Below, piece by piece: positions 6,646-19,220 of a DNA stretch of 23,635 nucleotides; position 1 is the first letter of the stretch, and every line of letters starts with the position of its first letter. The position numbers were made by a program, and so were the translations under genes. Under the pieces are notes generated by a model. The model saw only the letters and a list, made by a program, of their open reading frames with translations. It was not told where the DNA came from and ran no database searches. Source of the stretch: Cyanobacteria bacterium HKST-UBA02 (lineage in GTDB: Bacteria; Cyanobacteriota; Vampirovibrionia; Obscuribacterales; Obscuribacteraceae); NCBI GenBank assembly GCA_020431945.1, contig JAGQHH010000187.1:1-23635 (forward strand), read 5' to 3'.

Positions 6646-7203
6646 ATGAAGGCGACTCTCAATCTCATCCTCATCGTCTACGCGGGATATCTGGTCTTCA
6701 ATATGTTTTTCAAAGACACTGCCATTGCCAAACTGCCCGACCAGGGCAATCTCCACAAAGCGACGCTAGCTGCCGGGTGATTCTGGGGTGTTGAAGCGGC
6801 GCTTCAACGAATCGAAGGGGTCGAATACGCGACTTCGGGCTACACCGGCGGGACCACCAAGGATCCCACTTACGAAGACGTTTGCGGAGGCCGGACCGGG
6901 CATGCCGAGGCGGTGCAGGTTCTATACGATCCTGAGAAGCTGACTTTCCGGGAGCTGATCAAGAAATATCTGAGCAACTTCGCCCCCAGGCGCCGCGGCG
7001 CGGACAAGTTCAGCCAGTATCGGGCAGCGATCTTCTACCATGACGACGAGCAGAGACGCCAGGCTCTCGAGGTGCTCGGTACCATGGGCTATGACAGGGA
7101 TTCGAGCGAGCATCTGCTGGAGCCCGCCGGGATTTTCTACGCCGCCGAGGAATATCATCAGGACTATTACGACAAGATGTCCCTGGGCGTGCGCGGCAGG
7201 TAG
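6646..7203 (+). CDS. msrA: selenocysteine-containing peptide methionine sulfoxide reductase MsrA (UGA-recoded)
   Basis: The frame from ATG 6646 (GGGAG 7 nt upstream) reads into an in-frame TGA at 6778-6780 and continues to TAG at 7201. Through that codon it is a complete MsrA of 185 residues, reducing methionine-S-sulfoxide. The TGA sits at residue 45 in ATLAAG-[TGA]-FWGVEAA, exactly where MsrA has its catalytic Cys (GCFWG). Other family residues are present: Phe46-Trp47, Tyr66 in GYTGG, Cys80 in YEDVCGGRTGH, Glu88 in HAEAV, Asp120 and Tyr125 in QYR. The first 22 residues form a hydrophobic segment (LNLILIVYAGYLVFNMFF), so it is probably exported or membrane anchored. No C-terminal resolving Cys is seen. 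Cys80 is the only Cys. A hairpin fitting a bacterial SECIS begins inside the TGA. The alternative is a nonsense mutation at that very codon, which I judge less likely. Confidence 0.87.
6779..6813 (+). promoter_or_regulatory. putative bacterial SECIS element (selenocysteine insertion hairpin)
   Basis: The RNA can form a lower stem of GAUUC (6779-6783, starting within the UGA codon) with GAAUC (6809-6813). The upper 8-bp stem is GUUGAAGC (6790-6797) with GCUUCAAC (6801-6808), closed by the loop GGC (6798-6800). A 6-nt bulge, UGGGGU (6784-6789), lies on the 5' side between the stems. The apical loop begins 17 nt after the UGA and starts with G-G. Both fit the bacterial SECIS consensus as I know it: a loop about 16-37 nt after UGA with a G in its first positions. 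SelB would bind the upper stem-loop. Confidence 0.75.
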
Positions 7204-7323: not shown

Positions 7324-9618
7324 ATGCTTCGTTTCAGAAGGGTTTCGGCCTGTGTTCTGGCTGCGACGGTTCTTCTTTCTACCAGCGCCGCTGCTCAAGC
7401 ATATGACTTTCCGGGTAAAGGGGACAGGCAAGCCTGGCTTCAGGCCTGCGACCTGGCCAATCAAAGCGCGGCGATGATCCAGTCCGGTCAGTTCGATGCG
7501 GCTTTCAAGGGTTTCCACCGAGCGGTGGAGCTCTATTCCTTCGATCCTGTTCTAACCTATAACGTCGGTCTGGCGCACCAGCAATACGCATACATGGTCG
7601 GAGCAGAGTCGGACAAGCTGGCTCAGTTGAATCAGGCGCAGGAGTATTTCAAGAAAGCTGGAGAGCTGAAACCTGACACACCGGAGATCTGGATCCACCT
7701 GGCGAACGTGCAGTGCGAGCTCGGAAAATACCAGGACAGCCTAAGCAGTCTCGAGAGGACCCTCAAGATCGCCACGCTGTCAGAAAGCGATCGCGCCAGC
7801 ACCCTGCAGGCTATGGAGGTGGTAAAGGGTAAGATGTCTGTTGCCACCGGTTCTGCGAGCCCGCAGAACTCGGCGAAACAAGAGACGGCAACGAATATCT
7901 CGTGGAAGTCTTTCAAGAACGATTCGATTGCCCTGAAGCATCCGGAAGGATGGAAAGTCACTGCGGACAGCAAGACGGGACAGATCGACCTTGACTCCGC
8001 GGACGGTGCCAGACTCACTTTGCTGCCGTTTTCGACAGACAAAACGATCTCACCGTCGGCGGCACCATTAATTTTCAAGACGTTCATCAAACTGATCGCA
8101 CCGCAAGAGCAGTGGAGCGAGCCACAACGCATCGGCGAAGGCTCCTTTCAATCTACTTATTCGAATTCGACCGATGATGGCGTCGCTGCCATTTCTTTCC
8201 GCAGCTATACGAACTCCACTGCAGGACGGGTTGCGGTGGCAAAACATCCGAAGAGCGCCGGTCCCTTTCCGGTGCAGGTCTTCGCTGAGATAATCGCCAG
8301 CCTGAGCCCCCTCAAACCGGCACAGATCGCAAGCGCGCAGACCCAGGGTGATACCAGACCGGATTCATCTGCGGGCAGCAGCGAAGATGATGGTGACGAT
8401 GATTCCGGCTCTGATTCAAATTCTAGCTCCGGTTCTGATTCTGATTCGGTGTCTGATTCGGGTTCTGGCTCCGGTTCTGATTCCGGCTCAGATCCAGATT
8501 CGGACTCAGAGTCCGATTCCGATGAGGGTTCTGATTCAGATTCTGATGCAGGCTCTGATTCAGGCACCGGCTCCAACTACGACTCCAACGGATCCGGCGC
8601 AGACACAGGCTCCGAAAGTCAGACCGCAAACGGCGCCCCCGGTCAGAGCCCGGTTCCTTTCAGCGGCTGGACGACTTTTAGAGATCCGGACCAGGGCTCA
8701 TTCACCGTCGAAGTACCGGCAGGCTGGAAAGTAGAGGGCGGCATGGTCCGCCCGCGTCCTATCGACGCGCGCCCCTGGATGCGAGCGATATCACCCGATG
8801 GTCTGGTGGCAGCGTTTATAGGCGACGGAAAAATCCCCGGCTACACCATGCCCAATGGCCAATTGACCACCCTGGGATTCGGTCCGGGTCGCTGGTATAA
8901 CGGCTCACTCGTAGCCCAGTACATCCCCGCGCGCACCTTCGCCGAGAAGTATGCCGTCAAATACCTGAAGCCCTACGCGACCGACATTCGTGTCGTCGAG
9001 GCCTACAACCATCCCGACGTCGCCCGGGCTGTAAATGGCACAGTCGGGGCAAGCAAGTCAGAAGCAGTTTCGATCAAGATCACTGCGAACAAAGGCGCGA
9101 TGCCCCTGGTCGGCTATTATCTCTGCTGCACCAAAGCCACCGTCGGATACGGAACCGGCATGTGGTGGGTGACGAAAATCGCCGGGGTAGTCTGTCCGGC
9201 TCAAATGGATCGCGCCGGGCTGGGATTGATCTTGCACATGCTCCAGACATTCCAGATCGATCCCCAGTGGGGTAATGAATCAATCAAGACTGCCGGTCAG
9301 GTTTCTCGCAATTACAGGGCTGCCAGCCAGCAAGTCTCGAACTCGATCATGAACAGGTACTGGAGCCAGCAGGCGGCGAACGAGAGTATCCACAATGCCT
9401 ACTGGAACCGTCAGGCATCGCAGGATCGAGCCGCCAATAGATACTCGGATGCCTTCCGCGGGGTGGAGAATGTTCGCGATCCAAACACAGGCACCAATTA
9501 TCAAGTCCAATACGGTCCTGACAAACACTGGATGGACAATCTAGGCAACTACCAGGCCACCGACGCCAATACCGATCTCGGTCATCAGTGGCACCAGCTC
9601 ATGACTATTCCTGATTGA
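7324..9618 (+). CDS. secreted TPR protein with Ser-Asp repeat linker and uncharacterised C-terminal domain
   Basis: This is a 764-residue exported protein. A signal peptide (MLRFRRVSACVLAATVLLSTSAAAQA) precedes TPR-like helices at about 45-170 (FDAAFKGFHRAVELY, AQEYFKKAGELKPDTPEIWIHLANVQCELGKY). A first globular region at about 190-332 includes WKSFKNDSIALKHPEGWKV. A linker at about 345-435 is almost only Ser, Asp, Gly and Glu. A second globular region from about 445 includes FTVEVPAGWKVEGG and two 'HPEGW/PAGW' type strands like the first. The last 100 residues are rich in Trp, Tyr, Asn and Gln (NRYWSQQAANES, NAYWNRQASQDRAANRY) and end with GTNYQVQYGPDKHWMDNLGNY. It is probably periplasmic or surface exposed; function unknown. 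The ribosome site GAGGTGA lies 7 nt before the ATG. Its 3' end overlaps the convergent Ivy gene by 14 nt. Confidence 0.85.
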   Translation: MLRFRRVSACVLAATVLLSTSAAAQAYDFPGKGDRQAWLQACDLANQSAAMIQSGQFDAAFKGFHRAVELYSFDPVLTYNVGLAHQQYAYMVGAESDKLAQLNQAQEYFKKAGELKPDTPEIWIHLANVQCELGKYQDSLSSLERTLKIATLSESDRASTLQAMEVVKGKMSVATGSASPQNSAKQETATNISWKSFKNDSIALKHPEGWKVTADSKTGQIDLDSADGARLTLLPFSTDKTISPSAAPLIFKTFIKLIAPQEQWSEPQRIGEGSFQSTYSNSTDDGVAAISFRSYTNSTAGRVAVAKHPKSAGPFPVQVFAEIIASLSPLKPAQIASAQTQGDTRPDSSAGSSEDDGDDDSGSDSNSSSGSDSDSVSDSGSGSGSDSGSDPDSDSESDSDEGSDSDSDAGSDSGTGSNYDSNGSGADTGSESQTANGAPGQSPVPFSGWTTFRDPDQGSFTVEVPAGWKVEGGMVRPRPIDARPWMRAISPDGLVAAFIGDGKIPGYTMPNGQLTTLGFGPGRWYNGSLVAQYIPARTFAEKYAVKYLKPYATDIRVVEAYNHPDVARAVNGTVGASKSEAVSIKITANKGAMPLVGYYLCCTKATVGYGTGMWWVTKIAGVVCPAQMDRAGLGLILHMLQTFQIDPQWGNESIKTAGQVSRNYRAASQQVSNSIMNRYWSQQAANESIHNAYWNRQASQDRAANRYSDAFRGVENVRDPNTGTNYQVQYGPDKHWMDNLGNYQATDANTDLGHQWHQLMTIPD
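8359..8625 (+). repeat. Ser-Asp (GAT-TCN) repeat tract within the secreted protein gene
   Basis: The coding sequence degenerates into hexanucleotide-like units of the type GAT TCN and GGN TCN. They encode about 88 residues dominated by Ser and Asp with interspersed Gly and Glu (for example SDSDSVSDSGSGSGSDSGSD). It separates the N-terminal TPR/globular part from the C-terminal part. The composition resembles the stalk repeats of Sdr/clumping-factor surface proteins, but no LPXTG anchor follows, so the likeness is probably convergent. Confidence 0.9.
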
Positions 9619-14110: not shown

Positions 14111-14854
14111 TCAGCACCGTTCGAGCATTCGCCTGACGCGATTGTCTCCGCGATCCATGGACCAGGAGGTGCTATTGCCGGTGGTGCCGTCTTCCGAGTG
14201 TAAGGTCAATCGTCCGCCGTCTTCCGGGACATCGGGACATTCCGACCATGCCTTCCCGAATAGATAAAGAGACTCGTAAGCATTGTAGCTGCCGGCGACA
14301 AGCGCATCGTCGGCAGGCTCGGCTCCCGGACTGAGATGCCAGCGATCTCGGTAAGCCATTTTTCCCGAGATATCGATCTGGATAGAGCTATCCATCTGCT
14401 CGAACTGCCAGCACTCACCCATGGCTATCCGTCCGGCGCTCCAGGACTCTTTCAGCAACAGCCCGCTCGATTCATGCATATCGACCTTGAGTCGCTGGGT
14501 AAAACTGGCGCCGCCTGTCAGAATAAATGGCTGCGGACAGAAGCAGAGCTTGCTCCCGTGCCCCAGCTTTATGAGCACCTCCTGCCTGGAGGCGCCGGTA
14601 TAGACCAGGCAGGCAGCCTGGGTGCGCACCTCGAGAGTGGCTCCGTCCGCCACATCGATCTCGATCTCGTGAATGTCGCCGTCTAAAAGGCCAGCCGATG
14701 GGCTGCGCAAGAAAATTGTTGGATGGCAGCTACGATTGAGATAAAGCGGGCGGTGCACCTGCAGTGGTGCCTTACCGAACTGGTAGCTGACTACCGACCT
14801 GTTCTCCAGAGGGCGAAAGTCGGTGCGCAACCGGGCGATGCCGTGGTTAAGCAC
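14111..14854 (-). CDS. ureD: urease accessory protein UreD
   Basis: UreD (also called UreH) is the scaffold that binds apo-urease and, with UreF and UreG, delivers Ni. Visible family segments are [12 protein letters not shown] near the N-terminus, [46 protein letters not shown], and [18 protein letters not shown] in place of the more usual '...GR-x-x-x-GE...F' block. I take the GTG at 14854, which overlaps the ureG stop in GTGCTTAA and has GAAGGG 7 nt upstream. This gives 247 residues. The ATG at 14910 would add 19 residues that only shadow the ureG C-terminus. Coupled translation with ureG is likely. Confidence 0.9.
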
Positions 14855-15470
14855 GCGCCAGCCCTTCGAAGAGAACGTGCTCTCGTATCCAGGCGACCAC
14901 TTGATCGACATTCTTATCGTGTCTAATATCAGTGAATATGAAAGGGCGTCCCTGGCGAATAGCACTGGAGTCGCGCTCCATGACGCTCAGGTCTGCGCCT
15001 ACATAGGGCGCCAGGTCGATCTTGTTGATCACCAGAAGGTCCGAGCGGCTTATCGCCGGACCGCCTTTTCGGGGAATCTTATCGCCCTCGGCCACATCTA
15101 TGACATAGATGAAAGCATCCACCAGCTCGGGGCTGAATGTTGCGGCTAAATTATCGCCACCCGACTCGAGAAAGACTATGTCGGGTGAAAAGCGAGCCTC
15201 CAGCCTCTCGAGGGCATCGATGTTGAGGGAGGCGTCCTCGCGAATAGCGGTGTGGGGGCAGCCCCCCGTCTCGACACCGACAATGCGCTCGGGCTCGAGA
15301 ACGCCCTGCTTGATGAGAAACTCCGCATCCTCTCGCGTATAGATGTCATTGGTGACCACAGCCACCGAATGGCTGTCCTTCATGAGTCGGCAGAGACTAG
15401 CCACCAGAGCCGTTTTACCGGAGCCGACCGGTCCCCCGATTCCTATTCTGACTGCTTTTCGATCCGACAT
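14847..15470 (-). CDS. ureG: urease accessory GTPase UreG
   Basis: This is a 207-residue SIMIBI-class GTPase that hydrolyses GTP to drive Ni transfer into urease. Walker A is at the N-terminus ([19 protein letters not shown]). It is followed by [33 protein letters not shown] with the CPH Ni-binding motif, [17 protein letters not shown], and [16 protein letters not shown], where NKID gives guanine specificity. The length is standard for UreG. The ATG at 15470 has GAGTGA upstream. It is the first gene of the minus-strand ureG-ureD unit, divergent from ureA across an 82-nt spacer. Confidence 0.97.
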
Positions 15471-15499
15471 TTTTTCACTCTACTTATTTTGAATTGAAC

Positions 15500-15505
15500 T
15501 ATACT
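15500..15505 (+). promoter_or_regulatory. possible -10 element (TATACT) in the ureG/ureA divergent spacer
   Basis: TATACT lies 47 nt before the ureA start. Its complement AGTATA, read as TATAGT one base along on the minus strand, could also serve ureG. No good -35 hexamer is seen on either strand, which may mean activator control, for example by nitrogen status. That last point is inference. Confidence 0.33.
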
Positions 15506-15552
15506 AGCCGATTGGATTGCATATTTTAGCTCAGAGAGCTTCGGGGGATGTC

Positions 15553-15855
15553 ATGCACCTTTCGCCCGTAGAGAAAGAGAAACTCTTGATCTTTCTTGCC
15601 GCCCAGTTAGCCGAGAAGCGCAAAGCCAGGGGATTGAAACTCAATCATCCCGAAGCCATGGCTATTCTCACCTTCACCCTCATGGAGGGCGCCCGTGACG
15701 GCAAGTCGGTCGCGGAGCTGATGAGTGAAGGGACCAGCATATTGAGGCGTGATGAGGTCATGGAAGGAGTTCCGGAGATGATCCGCGAGCTTCAGGTAGA
15801 GGCGACATTCCCGGACGGAACCAAGCTGATTACGGTGGAGCAACCAATTCGCTAG
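15553..15855 (+). CDS. ureA: urease subunit gamma UreA
   Basis: This is a 100-residue protein beginning [20 protein letters not shown], followed by [19 protein letters not shown] and [13 protein letters not shown]. All are near-invariant features of the small gamma subunit, which is also 100 residues in Klebsiella. The ATG at 15553, with GGGGGA 4 nt upstream, gives the exact family length; the TTG at 15517 would add a non-homologous extension. UreA, UreB and UreC assemble into the cytoplasmic Ni-urease that hydrolyses urea to ammonia and carbamate. Confidence 0.97.
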
Positions 15856-15910
15856 GGGCGCCGGGGCACGTTTAGTAAAAGTATTAGGACATTCAAGCCA
15901 GGAGAAGCAG

Positions 15911-16282
15911 ATGATACCGGGAGAGCTATTTCTGGAAGACGGAGATATCGAGGCCAATGTGGGCAGGAAGACGGTTCGATTGACCGTCCGAAACTCCGGC
16001 GATCGACCGATACAAGTGGGCACGCACTTCCACTTCTTCGAGGTGAACAGGAAGCTCCTCTTCGAGCGCGAGAAGGCGCTGGGCATGCGTCTCAATATCC
16101 CCGCCGGCACAGCGGTGCGCTTCGAGGCCGGACAGTCTCACGAGGTCGAGCTGGTGGAGCTGGCTGGCGATGGTCTCATTCACGGATTCAACCGGCTGGT
16201 GGAAGGCAACATCAATGATCCTGCAGTTCGAAAGGCGGCTTTAGAAAGAATGGCAGAATTTGTATCCGAGTCAAATACATAG
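15911..16282 (+). CDS. ureB: urease subunit beta UreB
   Basis: A 123-residue beta subunit beginning [20 protein letters not shown]. It is followed by the conserved [34 protein letters not shown] and [12 protein letters not shown] blocks. The ATG at 15911 has AGGAGA 5 nt upstream. It lies 55 nt after ureA on the same strand. UreB packs against UreA and UreC and stabilises the flap over the active site. The C-terminal extension (about 20 residues after GNIND) is helical and slightly longer than in the shortest family members, as is common in bacteria. Confidence 0.97.
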
Positions 16283-16309
16283 AATCAAATCTAGGAATCA
16301 CATCTAGAA

Positions 16310-16975
16310 ATGAACAGCAGCAACGGCGCACTCCTGAAACTCATACAGCTCACCGACTCGGCCTTCCCCATAGGCGGCTACGCTCACTCTTACGGACTCG
16401 AGACTCTTATCGAAGCCGGCGTCAGGGACGCGGATGCCTGCGCTGGAGTTATAGGATCCATTCTGGAGCGGTCAATCGCGCCGCTCGACGGAACCGCCTG
16501 TGCCCTGGGGTATGAGCTGGCGGCTGGAGGTGATCTTGCGGGTTTTGGTCGCTTGAATGAGACTCTGGATGCGATGAAGTGGCCTGACGAGATCTGCCGC
16601 GCTTCCCTCGCCCTCGGTCGGCGTACTTTGAAGATGGCAGCAGAGCTTGGCTGGATCGAGACATCCGAGTTGCAGGCAGGACACCATGCGCCTGTCTTCG
16701 GCTGGCTATGCAGGCGCATCGGCACCACAGCGGAGGACGCGGTGAGTGCCTACCTTCACTGCTCGGTCGCCGGGCTTGTCTCGGTTTGTGTCAGGTTGGT
16801 ACCACTGGGACACGGCGCCGGGCAAAAGCTCCTGGCCAGCATGGCTCCTACCATAGAAAGCCTTGCACCAGGGTGCACCAGGCGCAATATCGAAGATATG
16901 GGTACGTTTATGCCTCTCTACGAGAGGGCCTGCGCAGAGCACCGTAATGTGCCAACCAAACTTTTCCAATCATAG
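16310..16975 (+). CDS. ureF: urease accessory protein UreF
   Basis: A 221-residue all-helical accessory protein that joins UreD and UreG on apo-urease. It shows the family start LLKLIQLTDSAFPIGGYAHSYGLETLI, the HHAPVFGWLCRRIG block, and AYLHCSVAGLVSVCVRLVPLGHGAGQKLL. The C-terminus PLYERACAEHRNVPTKLFQS matches the usual 'HE-x-x-x-x-RLF-x-S' tail in form. It sits between ureB and ureC, an uncommon place, because ureF usually clusters with ureE, ureG and ureD. The spacings (27 nt before, 35 nt after) suggest one transcript with the structural genes. Confidence 0.95.
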   Translation: MNSSNGALLKLIQLTDSAFPIGGYAHSYGLETLIEAGVRDADACAGVIGSILERSIAPLDGTACALGYELAAGGDLAGFGRLNETLDAMKWPDEICRASLALGRRTLKMAAELGWIETSELQAGHHAPVFGWLCRRIGTTAEDAVSAYLHCSVAGLVSVCVRLVPLGHGAGQKLLASMAPTIESLAPGCTRRNIEDMGTFMPLYERACAEHRNVPTKLFQS

Positions 16976-17010
16976 AAAGACACAAGACCTGAATTAATTG
17001 GAGCCGGACA

Positions 17011-18729
17011 ATGACATTGAAGATCCCTCGAGAAACCTACGCATCGCTCTACGGTCCGACCAGAGGAGATCGTGTCCGGCTGGCCGACACGGATCTGCTG
17101 ATCGAGGTCGAGGAAGATCGGACCGTATTCGGCGATGAGATCAAATTCGGTGGCGGCAAGACAGTGCGTGACGGGCAGGGACAGAGCCCTACCGCATTAT
17201 CCGGCGAGGGCACCCTCGATGTCGTCATTACCAACGCCCTTATCTTGGACTGGTGGGGGATTATCAAAGCCGATGTCGGTATCAAGGGCGGGCGTATTCA
17301 AGGCATAGGCAAAGCAGGCAACCCCCACACTCAGGCAGGAGTCGACCAGGATCTGGTGGTCGGAGCGTGCACAGATGTGATATCTGGCGAGGGCTTGATT
17401 CTCACCGCTGGTGGTGTTGATGCTCACGTTCATTTCATCTGCCCTCAGCTTTGCGAATATGCCATCGCCGCTGGTATGACCACACTGATAGGCGGCGGTG
17501 TCGGACCCTCCGCCAGCTCCAATGCCACCACCTGCAGCCCCGGCGCTTTCAATATCCAGCGTATGCTGGCCAGCTCCGAAGCGTTTCCGGTCAACATCGG
17601 CTTCTACGGCAAGGGGAACTGCAGCCTGGAGGCGCCCCTCGCCGAGCAGATCGAGGCCGGTGCCTGCGGCATGAAACTGCACGAGGACTGGGGCTCGACA
17701 CCCGCTGCAATCGACGCTTGCCTGAGCGTCTGCGATCGCTATGACGTGCAGGCGGCCATTCATACCGACACCCTCAACGAGGCTGGCTTTGTCGAGGATA
17801 CGATAAAGGCGATCGCCGGAAGAGCCATCCATACATTTCACACCGAAGGCGCCGGCGGCGGCCACGCTCCGGACATCATCAAGATAGCCGGCTACGCGAA
17901 CATCCTGCCGAGCTCCACCAATCCGACCCGCCCCTTCACGGTCAATACCATCGAAGAGCACCTCGATATGCTCATGGTCTGCCACAACCTCCACAAGGAC
18001 GTCCCGGAGGACGTCAAATTCGCAGAGTCCAGAATCAGACCGCAGACCATCGCGGCTGAGGATGTTCTTCAAGACATCGGCGCCATCTCGATGTTTTCCT
18101 CCGATTCGCAGGCCATGGGTAGAATAAGCGAAGTGGTGCTGCGTACCTGGCAGACCGCCGACAAGATGAAGAAGCAGTTCGGACCGCTGGATACCGACAG
18201 CGATCGCAACGACAATACCCGCGCCAAGAGATATGTCGCCAAATATACAATCAACCCCGCCATCACTCACGGAGTCGGCCATATCATAGGCTCGATCGAG
18301 ACCGGCAAGTGGGCCGATCTGGTCCTATGGCACCCGCAATTCTTCGGGGTAAAACCGGAGATGGTGCTCAAGGGGGGCATGATCGCCTACGCCCAGGTCG
18401 GCTCGCCGGCGGCCTCCATACCCACACCACAGCCAGTGCTGCCACGCCCGATGTTCGGTAGTATGGGCGGTGCCCGCTCCTTATCCAACCTCGTGTTCAT
18501 GTCTGGGGCAGGAATTGCCAGTGGTGTTCCCGAGAAGTTGAATCTCACCAGGCAGGTGGTAGCCATCGAGAATTGCCGTTCTATTGGAAAGAAGGACATG
18601 CGTCTCAATGACGCATTGCCTTCCATCGAGGTCAATCCCGAGACCTACGAGGTCTTCGTGGACGGCAAGCTGGCGAAGACAGAGCCTTCCGAGAAGCTGC
18701 CGATGGCTCAATTGTATTTTCTGTTTTAA
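17011..18729 (+). CDS. ureC: urease subunit alpha UreC (catalytic)
   Basis: This 572-residue catalytic subunit is of normal length. Ni ligands and catalytic residues are all visible: His139 and His141 in DAHVHF, the carbamylated Lys222 and His224 in MKLHEDWG, His251 in AIHTDTLNE, His277 and His285 in [13 protein letters not shown], Asp365 in [10 protein letters not shown], and the mobile-flap Cys324-His325 in MVCHNLHKD. In many ureases the flap reads CHHL; here the second His is Asn, while the catalytic His next to Cys is kept. The N-terminus ([23 protein letters not shown]) is typical. The ATG at 17011 has GGAGCC 5 nt upstream. With UreA and UreB it forms the active enzyme in the cytoplasm. 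I expect it to be active. Confidence 0.98.
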
Positions 18730-18746
18730 TCCAAAGGGAGGTTGTT

Positions 18747-19220
18747 ATGACCATTATCGTCGAGGCTCTGCCGGACCAGGAAGAGGGCGCAGAGAAGGGC
18801 GCAAATAAGGGAGCAGAAAAGGGACCAAGCGAAGTCGATCATGTCGAGCTCAATTATCACGATCGCTGCCGCCCGCGCCAGAGGGTCTCGACCACAGGCG
18901 GGCGCGAGCTGGCTCTGGCACTTCCGCGCGGGACGGTCCTTGCCGACGGAGTTGTGCTCCACCGCGACCAGGGGCTTGTAGTATCCGTCATAGCCAAGCC
19001 GGAGAAAGTGGTCCGAATTCAGCCGGATGGACATCGCCAGCTCTGCCTGGTCGCGCATCATCTGGGGAACTGGCACCGCTCTCTGGAGACTCTCGAGGAT
19101 GGGAGCGTTCTAGCGGAGCTGGACGGGCCGCTGGAAGACTGGCTGAAGCGGCAGGGTATTGGATACAGCATTGAGGAACGAGCGTATCAGCCCAATCTGA
19201 AGGGCGATTCGCACGATTGA
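18747..19220 (+). CDS. ureE: urease accessory Ni metallochaperone UreE
   Basis: A 157-residue protein that donates Ni to the UreG complex. The N-terminal domain reads CRPRQRVSTTGGRELALALPRGTVLADGVVLH. The C-terminal domain has the UreE core LVAHHLGNWHRSLETLEDGSVL (family GNRH; here GNWH, keeping the central metal-binding His) and ends GPLEDWLKRQGIGYSIEERAYQP. There is no His-rich tail, only KGDSHD, so Ni storage capacity should be low. Between the first strand (MTIIVEAL) and the rest sits an unusual insert of about 18 residues made of AEKG-type units. The ribosome site AAAGGGAGG lies 5 nt before the ATG. It is the last gene of the ureABFCE unit, 17 nt after ureC. Confidence 0.9.
   Translation: MTIIVEALPDQEEGAEKGANKGAEKGPSEVDHVELNYHDRCRPRQRVSTTGGRELALALPRGTVLADGVVLHRDQGLVVSVIAKPEKVVRIQPDGHRQLCLVAHHLGNWHRSLETLEDGSVLAELDGPLEDWLKRQGIGYSIEERAYQPNLKGDSHD
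18789..18824 (+). repeat. three 12-nt tandem repeats in ureE
   Basis: Units at 18789-18800, 18801-18812 and 18813-18824 encode AEKG, ANKG and AEKG. The period of 12 nt keeps the frame. The insert falls in the N-terminal peptide-binding domain, after the first strand, where other UreE proteins have a short loop. Confidence 0.85.

Follow-up and report, generated by a model that had tools for sequence, protein, structure and literature searches.

How is a methionine sulfoxide reductase made from a gene in which a stop codon stands where the catalytic cysteine should be? The question is raised by a stretch of 23,635 nt (the window, by which we mean the whole stretch of DNA analysed), in which a single frame of 185 residues runs from an ATG at 6646 to a TAG at 7201-7203 and contains one internal stop, the TGA at 6778-6780. 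The initial annotation had described this frame and its sole interruption, which our ORF search and translation confirm, and had proposed that the TGA encodes selenocysteine (Sec). Our analysis indicates that the window gene does encode an MsrA whose catalytic Cys codon is replaced by TGA, and that this UGA is very probably translated as selenocysteine, aided by a predicted SECIS hairpin, a reading to which we assign a probability of roughly 0.95. Of the readings considered, a Sec-MsrA is far ahead of the others because TGA and Cys form a conserved pair at one position, because a SECIS-like hairpin with frozen synonymous sites follows the TGA, because the order to which the host most likely belongs has the Sec machinery, because the Sec orthologs lack a C-terminal resolving Cys, and because TGA otherwise acts as a normal terminator in the window. 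The features discussed below are collected in Table 1.

Table 1. The msrA gene and the features read or predicted within it, in window coordinates
Feature	Positions	Strand	Basis
msrA, read through UGA (peptide-methionine (S)-S-oxide reductase), 185 aa	6646..7203	+	frame, Pfam and NCBIfam matches, alignment with solved MsrAs
Predicted membrane anchor: hydrophobic stretch at the N-terminus (residues 4-22)	6655..6711	+	hydropathy scan
Predicted Sec codon: TGA in frame at residue 45, the catalytic Cys position	6778..6780	+	TGA at this codon also in four orthologs and 16 other MsrA genes
Predicted bacterial SECIS hairpin: stem 6789-6797 / 6801-6809, loop GGC 6798-6800	6789..6809	+	folding, stem scan, synonymous freeze in codons 46-57
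Cys80 codon (VCGG), the protein's only cysteine	6883..6885	+	translation, comparison with orthologs

The msrA frame and its TGA codon

With residue 45 entered as Cys, the read-through protein matches the PMSR domain (Pfam PF01625) over residues 38-179 with 157.1 bits against a cut-off of 23.7, and the NCBIfam model TIGR00401 (msrA) with 142.9 bits against a cut-off of 108.1. The TGA is codon 45, in the context ATLAAG-U-FWGVEAA, where the active site reads GUFWG, and residue 45 aligns onto the Cys of GCFWG in two solved MsrAs, which we take to be their catalytic Cys. The placement of the TGA at the MsrA catalytic site, as first annotated, is therefore upheld by both the profile matches and the alignment. 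From its family membership, we infer that the enzyme would reduce methionine-S-sulfoxide. It had also been predicted that standard gene callers would lose the catalytic half, and this is what we see: a plain ORF listing (minimum 80 aa) keeps just 6913-7203 in the msrA frame, which is the fragment after the TGA, and the database protein P0003 (131 aa) is, its first residue excepted, the protein of a related genome (G001, see below) starting just behind the TGA region. A further database protein, P0012, compared as protein sequence only, also starts behind the TGA site.

Scanning genome contigs with the window MsrA gave, among the best 80 of 573 loci, mostly far phyla, plus one contig from an Obscuribacterales MAG (L036), whose genome G001 has an MsrA that is 70% identical to the window's and contains one TGA. 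Across 53 genomes of the order Obscuribacterales, the ortholog group of the window gene consists of the MsrA genes in G001, G017, G040 and G050 (70, 65, 63 and 58% identity). Every one of them has a single TGA, always at the catalytic codon, so that the alignment with closest relatives proposed in the initial annotation finds TGA at the same codon in 4/4 orthologs. Since four orthologs in other genomes share it, TGA at the Cys codon exceeds what chance would give. More broadly, 52 of the 53 genomes have an MsrA match, and 24 of the order's matches have an internal stop (20 TGA, 4 TAA). The 20 TGA codons, from 18 genomes, occupy the catalytic codon without exception. The four TAA codons lie elsewhere, three upstream of a Met start and one internal (G053, L108). 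In a draw from the phylum, a control restricted to matches at E<=1e-32, a level reached by 11 of the order's 20 TGA matches, TGA occurred in 0 of 37 MsrA matches from 33 of 385 other genomes, and TAA in three of the 37. The Cys counterpart is P0002, a protein from a 'Cyanobacteria bacterium' MAG that is 59% identical to the window protein over 98% of the length; it has a similar hydrophobic N-terminus and differs in carrying a catalytic Cys (GCFWR) at the position aligned with the window's TGA and three extra cysteines at its C-terminus.

Could the TGA simply be a chance nonsense mutation, or a base-call error, in a Cys-MsrA gene? A single assembled contig is the sole source for it, and draft genomes do carry intragenic stops, examples being the TAA in the G053 MsrA and the TGA in the Tex gene of G050 (G050:C15:14601-16727, one internal TGA). 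However, the same codon is TGA in the four orthologs and in 16 further MsrA genes, selection is purifying on either side of it (dN 0.19-0.61 vs dS 1.8 or saturated, in both halves, for the window against the four orthologs over codons 1-44 and 58-185), and synonymous sites are frozen just after it. We reject this explanation, which the conserved TGA contradicts, as very improbable. We consider even less probable a genome-wide reassignment that gives UGA a standard meaning, for instance Trp or Gly, under which the msrA frame would likewise stay open through a TGA: in the window TGA is a normal terminator, ending 8 of the 20 ORFs picked as likely genes, the Trp close to residue 45 is encoded by TGG, and the aligned residue is Cys both in P0002 and in the solved MsrAs. 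This reading, too, we reject in favor of selenocysteine.

The TGA-bearing MsrA loci of the order (L133-L147, L089, L081 and L084-L086, in 18 genomes) represent several divergent MsrA subfamilies, and G040 alone carries three such genes (L085, L140, L143). An MsrA tree of 57 rows (21 Sec, 34 Cys, 2 truncated) needs five Sec/Cys changes, two of which are forced by well-supported branches; the tree omits some of the order's MsrA matches. The loci L172, L173, L176, L178, L001 and L024 are not part of it, and L083, L087, L091, L092 and L108 yielded no row.

Several other features of the window may be mentioned here. Fifteen other TGA-bridged frames, those listed for the window, were set aside because they resemble shadow frames or genuine gene ends. 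Downstream of msrA lies a TPR protein containing an extended Ser-Asp repeat (7324-9618), and a urease cluster occupies 14111-19220, with UreC at 17011-18729 from a profile match and its accessory neighbours read from translations. An Rfam match to 5_ureB_sRNA (17171-17456, minus strand, 65 bits) is antisense within this urease alpha gene and may reflect conserved coding sequence instead of an sRNA.

A predicted hairpin behind the UGA and a protein with one cysteine

Selenocysteine insertion in bacteria calls attention to the RNA just downstream of the UGA. Here the predicted hairpin has a 9-bp stem that starts 8 nt behind the UGA, with 17 nt from the UGA to the loop, and, of 161 codon positions scanned in the gene, no other yields a stem of at least 7 bp; its folding z-scores are -2.6 and -2.2 in two stretches. 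A small apical loop with a guanosine is described as a common trait of bacterial SECIS elements in the portion of the source available (PMC1088965), and the window hairpin has this form, being a stem-loop just after the UGA with a small, G-bearing apical loop. Among the five orthologs, pairs of sequences use the same codon in 76/97 comparisons over codons 46-57, against 74/229 over codons 1-44 and 299/788 over codons 58-185. This synonymous freeze is more than amino-acid conservation accounts for.

How general is the hairpin? A stem of at least 7 bp is present in 12 of 21 Sec genes vs 2 of 19 Cys genes (stem length, one-sided p=0.0016), a comparison that includes all 21 Sec genes and 19 Cys genes, the latter not being every Cys gene of the order; the site was lacking in 8 of the 48 sources scanned (L083, L087, L091, L092, L093, L095, L108, L109). 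The remaining 9 of the 21 Sec genes have no simple stem of this length in the scan. In an alignment of nine genes (eight distinct rows), 93% of the hairpin's pairing cells can pair, compared with 36-48% when partners are slid, while 0 pairs have compensatory change on both sides and no covariation measure rises above shuffled letters for the hairpin. The support for the hairpin is therefore synonymous conservation, not covariation. Two Cys-MsrA genes, L088 and L090, retain a hairpin of 8 bp where the SECIS would lie; they are placed in a Sec-rich group of the MsrA tree, and may be Sec-to-Cys switches in which the hairpin was kept. In the subfamily of L142, L145 and L146 there is a different hairpin, of 9-10 bp, whose loop lies 25 nt past the UGA.

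The protein itself fits an enzyme of the 1-Cys type, that is, an MsrA without a C-terminal resolving Cys. No cysteine occurs behind the GHAE motif in 5/5 Sec orthologs (the window included), against three in the Cys ortholog P0002. The best-described comparison is CoMsrA, the Sec-MsrA of Clostridium oremlandii OhILAs, which according to the available text (PMC4479559) likewise has Sec at the catalytic position and no resolving Cys. In the same text, its Sec form is 20-fold more active than the Sec-to-Cys form, and a catalytic dimer is resolved by glutaredoxin. The two proteins differ in that CoMsrA has zero Cys, compared with the single Cys80 of the window protein, and in that the window protein, unlike this enzyme of a strictly anaerobic Gram-positive, adds a predicted N-terminal membrane anchor. 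The hydropathy of that N-terminal segment is 1.79-2.89 in 6/6 proteins (the window, the four Sec orthologs and P0002).

In the mechanism that we propose, SelB and Sec-tRNA would bind the hairpin, leading to insertion of Sec at residue 45. The Sec45 selenolate would then attack methionine-S-sulfoxide in oxidised proteins, releasing methionine and leaving a selenenic acid. Because there is no C-terminal resolving Cys, an external thiol of the glutaredoxin or thioredoxin type, or else a dimer, would probably serve to reduce this selenenic acid, as in 1-Cys MsrAs. The predicted N-terminal segment would anchor MsrA, as a repair enzyme, at the envelope.

Selenocysteine machinery in the Obscuribacterales

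If UGA is to be read as selenocysteine, the components for doing so should be found in the order. tRNA-Sec (RF01852) is above cut-off in 42 of the 53 genomes, with best scores of 62-76 bits (the remaining genomes reach at most about 42), SelB in 40, SelA in 38 and SelD in 45. All four occur together in 31 of the 53, and SelA, SelB and tRNA-Sec are all missing from 7. Taken by itself, the cut-off for tRNA-Sec is the most permissive of these, since 5 of 14 control genomes pass it; 2 of the controls are above cut-off for SelB, 1 for SelA and 2 for SelD. ARAGORN reports a tRNA-Sec with a tca anticodon in 6/6 of the order loci given to it, and no tRNA gene in the 23,635 nt of the window; the SelB of G001 has the EF-Tu-type domains together with the SelB winged helix. 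SelD also serves selenouridine and so is not by itself proof of Sec use, as stated in the accessible part of PMC1273633.

Among the genomes with a TGA-MsrA, tRNA-Sec is present in 17 of the 18 and all four genes in 13. The exception, G041, has SelD above cut-off and SelA, SelB and tRNA-Sec below; it looks incomplete, since the EF-Tu-like match is also absent from it in the SelB search. Across the 53 genomes the association is marginal and weak on its own: tRNA-Sec occurs in 17/18 genomes with a TGA-MsrA vs 25/35 of the others (one-sided Fisher p=0.049), and the corresponding values are p=0.12 for all four genes and p=0.23 for any of SelA, SelB and tRNA-Sec.

One could instead imagine that the same tRNA and SECIS system supplies Cys at the UGA, either always or facultatively when selenium is scarce. 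In some organisms Cys can enter the Sec pathway by way of thiophosphate, and at the protein level Sec and Cys look alike from sequence. Against this stand the presence of SelD, the selenophosphate synthetase, above cut-off in most genomes of the order, and the observation that the Sec forms of the ortholog group do without the C-terminal cysteines present in the Cys ortholog P0002. We judge cysteine insertion to be highly unlikely, and retain selenocysteine as the residue encoded by the window's UGA.

What is the host, and does it have this machinery? The closest named matches of a patatin-like protein in the window are from Cyanobacteria bacterium SZAS-4, 'Cyanobacteria bacterium', Candidatus Melainabacteria and Candidatus Obscuribacterales, and NCBI taxonomy places Candidatus Obscuribacterales within Candidatus Melainabacteria, beside Cyanobacteriota. 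PsaA/PsaB were absent in searches of G001, G017, G040 and G050. Most probably, the host is a non-photosynthetic bacterium of the Obscuribacterales/Melainabacteria, from a sister group of the oxygenic cyanobacteria rather than from among them. The suggestion that the host might be related to cyanobacteria would then hold at the level of the phylum, without extending to an oxygenic cyanobacterium. By its Tex protein, which has matches at E<=1e-100 in 36 of the 53 genomes, the window has 11 nearest kin at 75-78% identity (one fragment is at 84%); ten of these have SelA, tRNA-Sec and SelD, nine of them with SelB as well, which leaves G020 with SelD alone. We infer from such relatives that the window's own organism would have the Sec machinery. 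The four carriers of the MsrA ortholog have Tex proteins at 64-66% and are not the window's nearest kin, implying that, among the genomes compared, gene transfer or repeated loss is involved and the history of the gene is not simply vertical.

A known enzyme in a new lineage

Sec-MsrA is a known type of selenoprotein; the lineage is new. As the initial annotation had noted, Sec-MsrAs exist in bacteria (PMC13188914, PMC1794560, PMC9312934) and in green algae (PMC6627142), as the available portions of these papers confirm. One bacterial case, likened here by description only, is the Sec-MsrA of Syntrophobacter fumaroxidans, a deltaproteobacterial anaerobe for which 31 selenoproteins are listed in the text at hand (PMC1794560). 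That oxygenic cyanobacteria are not known for Sec also agrees with the accessible parts of papers from 2006, 2015 and 2022, where Sec decoding is not detected or lacking in Cyanobacteria (PMC1794560, PMC5322559, PMC9312934); in the available text of a survey of 5207 genomes, Cyanobacteria are named solely for an orphan SelD (PMC5029168). The further claim that no selenoprotein had been described in the host's lineage needs qualification. We found no description of a Sec-MsrA or of a Sec trait in Obscuribacterales, in a literature coverage outside which most subscription papers and bioRxiv lie, and nothing in it on Sericytochromatia and selenocysteine. However, a single Sec-bearing protein from Candidatus Melainabacteria (PWT95605.1) is mentioned in passing in the accessible part of PMC9529120; it is from the same broad group, and we compare it by description, its family not being given there.

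Looking beyond the order, of the 382 genomes searched in the class 38 pass the SelA cut-off, every one of them from within the order. In the phylum draw it is above cut-off in 8 of 386 genomes, namely G001 and seven outside the 382 (G383, G387, G393, G399, G401, G411, G417). PsaA/PsaB are absent from these seven, and the nine MsrA matches found in five of them have no internal stop; the seven are likely a second set of Sec users. Of five other genomes of the phylum, three have PsaA/PsaB, and SelA is above cut-off in none.

More generally, the Obscuribacterales may be a hidden Sec-using lineage in which divergent MsrA subfamilies, with up to three Sec copies per genome, switch between Sec and Cys. 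Sec decoding would then be old in the non-photosynthetic branches and missing from the photosystem-bearing members (three checked), and the absence of Sec in Cyanobacteria would mark a loss or a failed acquisition. We regard the arguments for and against this broader picture as evenly balanced. With a Sec-MsrA, a SECIS-like hairpin and the machinery in most of a non-photosynthetic sister order, a loss of Sec on the way to oxygenic photosynthesis becomes a testable possibility. Moreover, as gene calling cuts the enzyme short and drops its catalytic residue, as in P0003, annotations of this group probably understate its methionine-sulfoxide repair.
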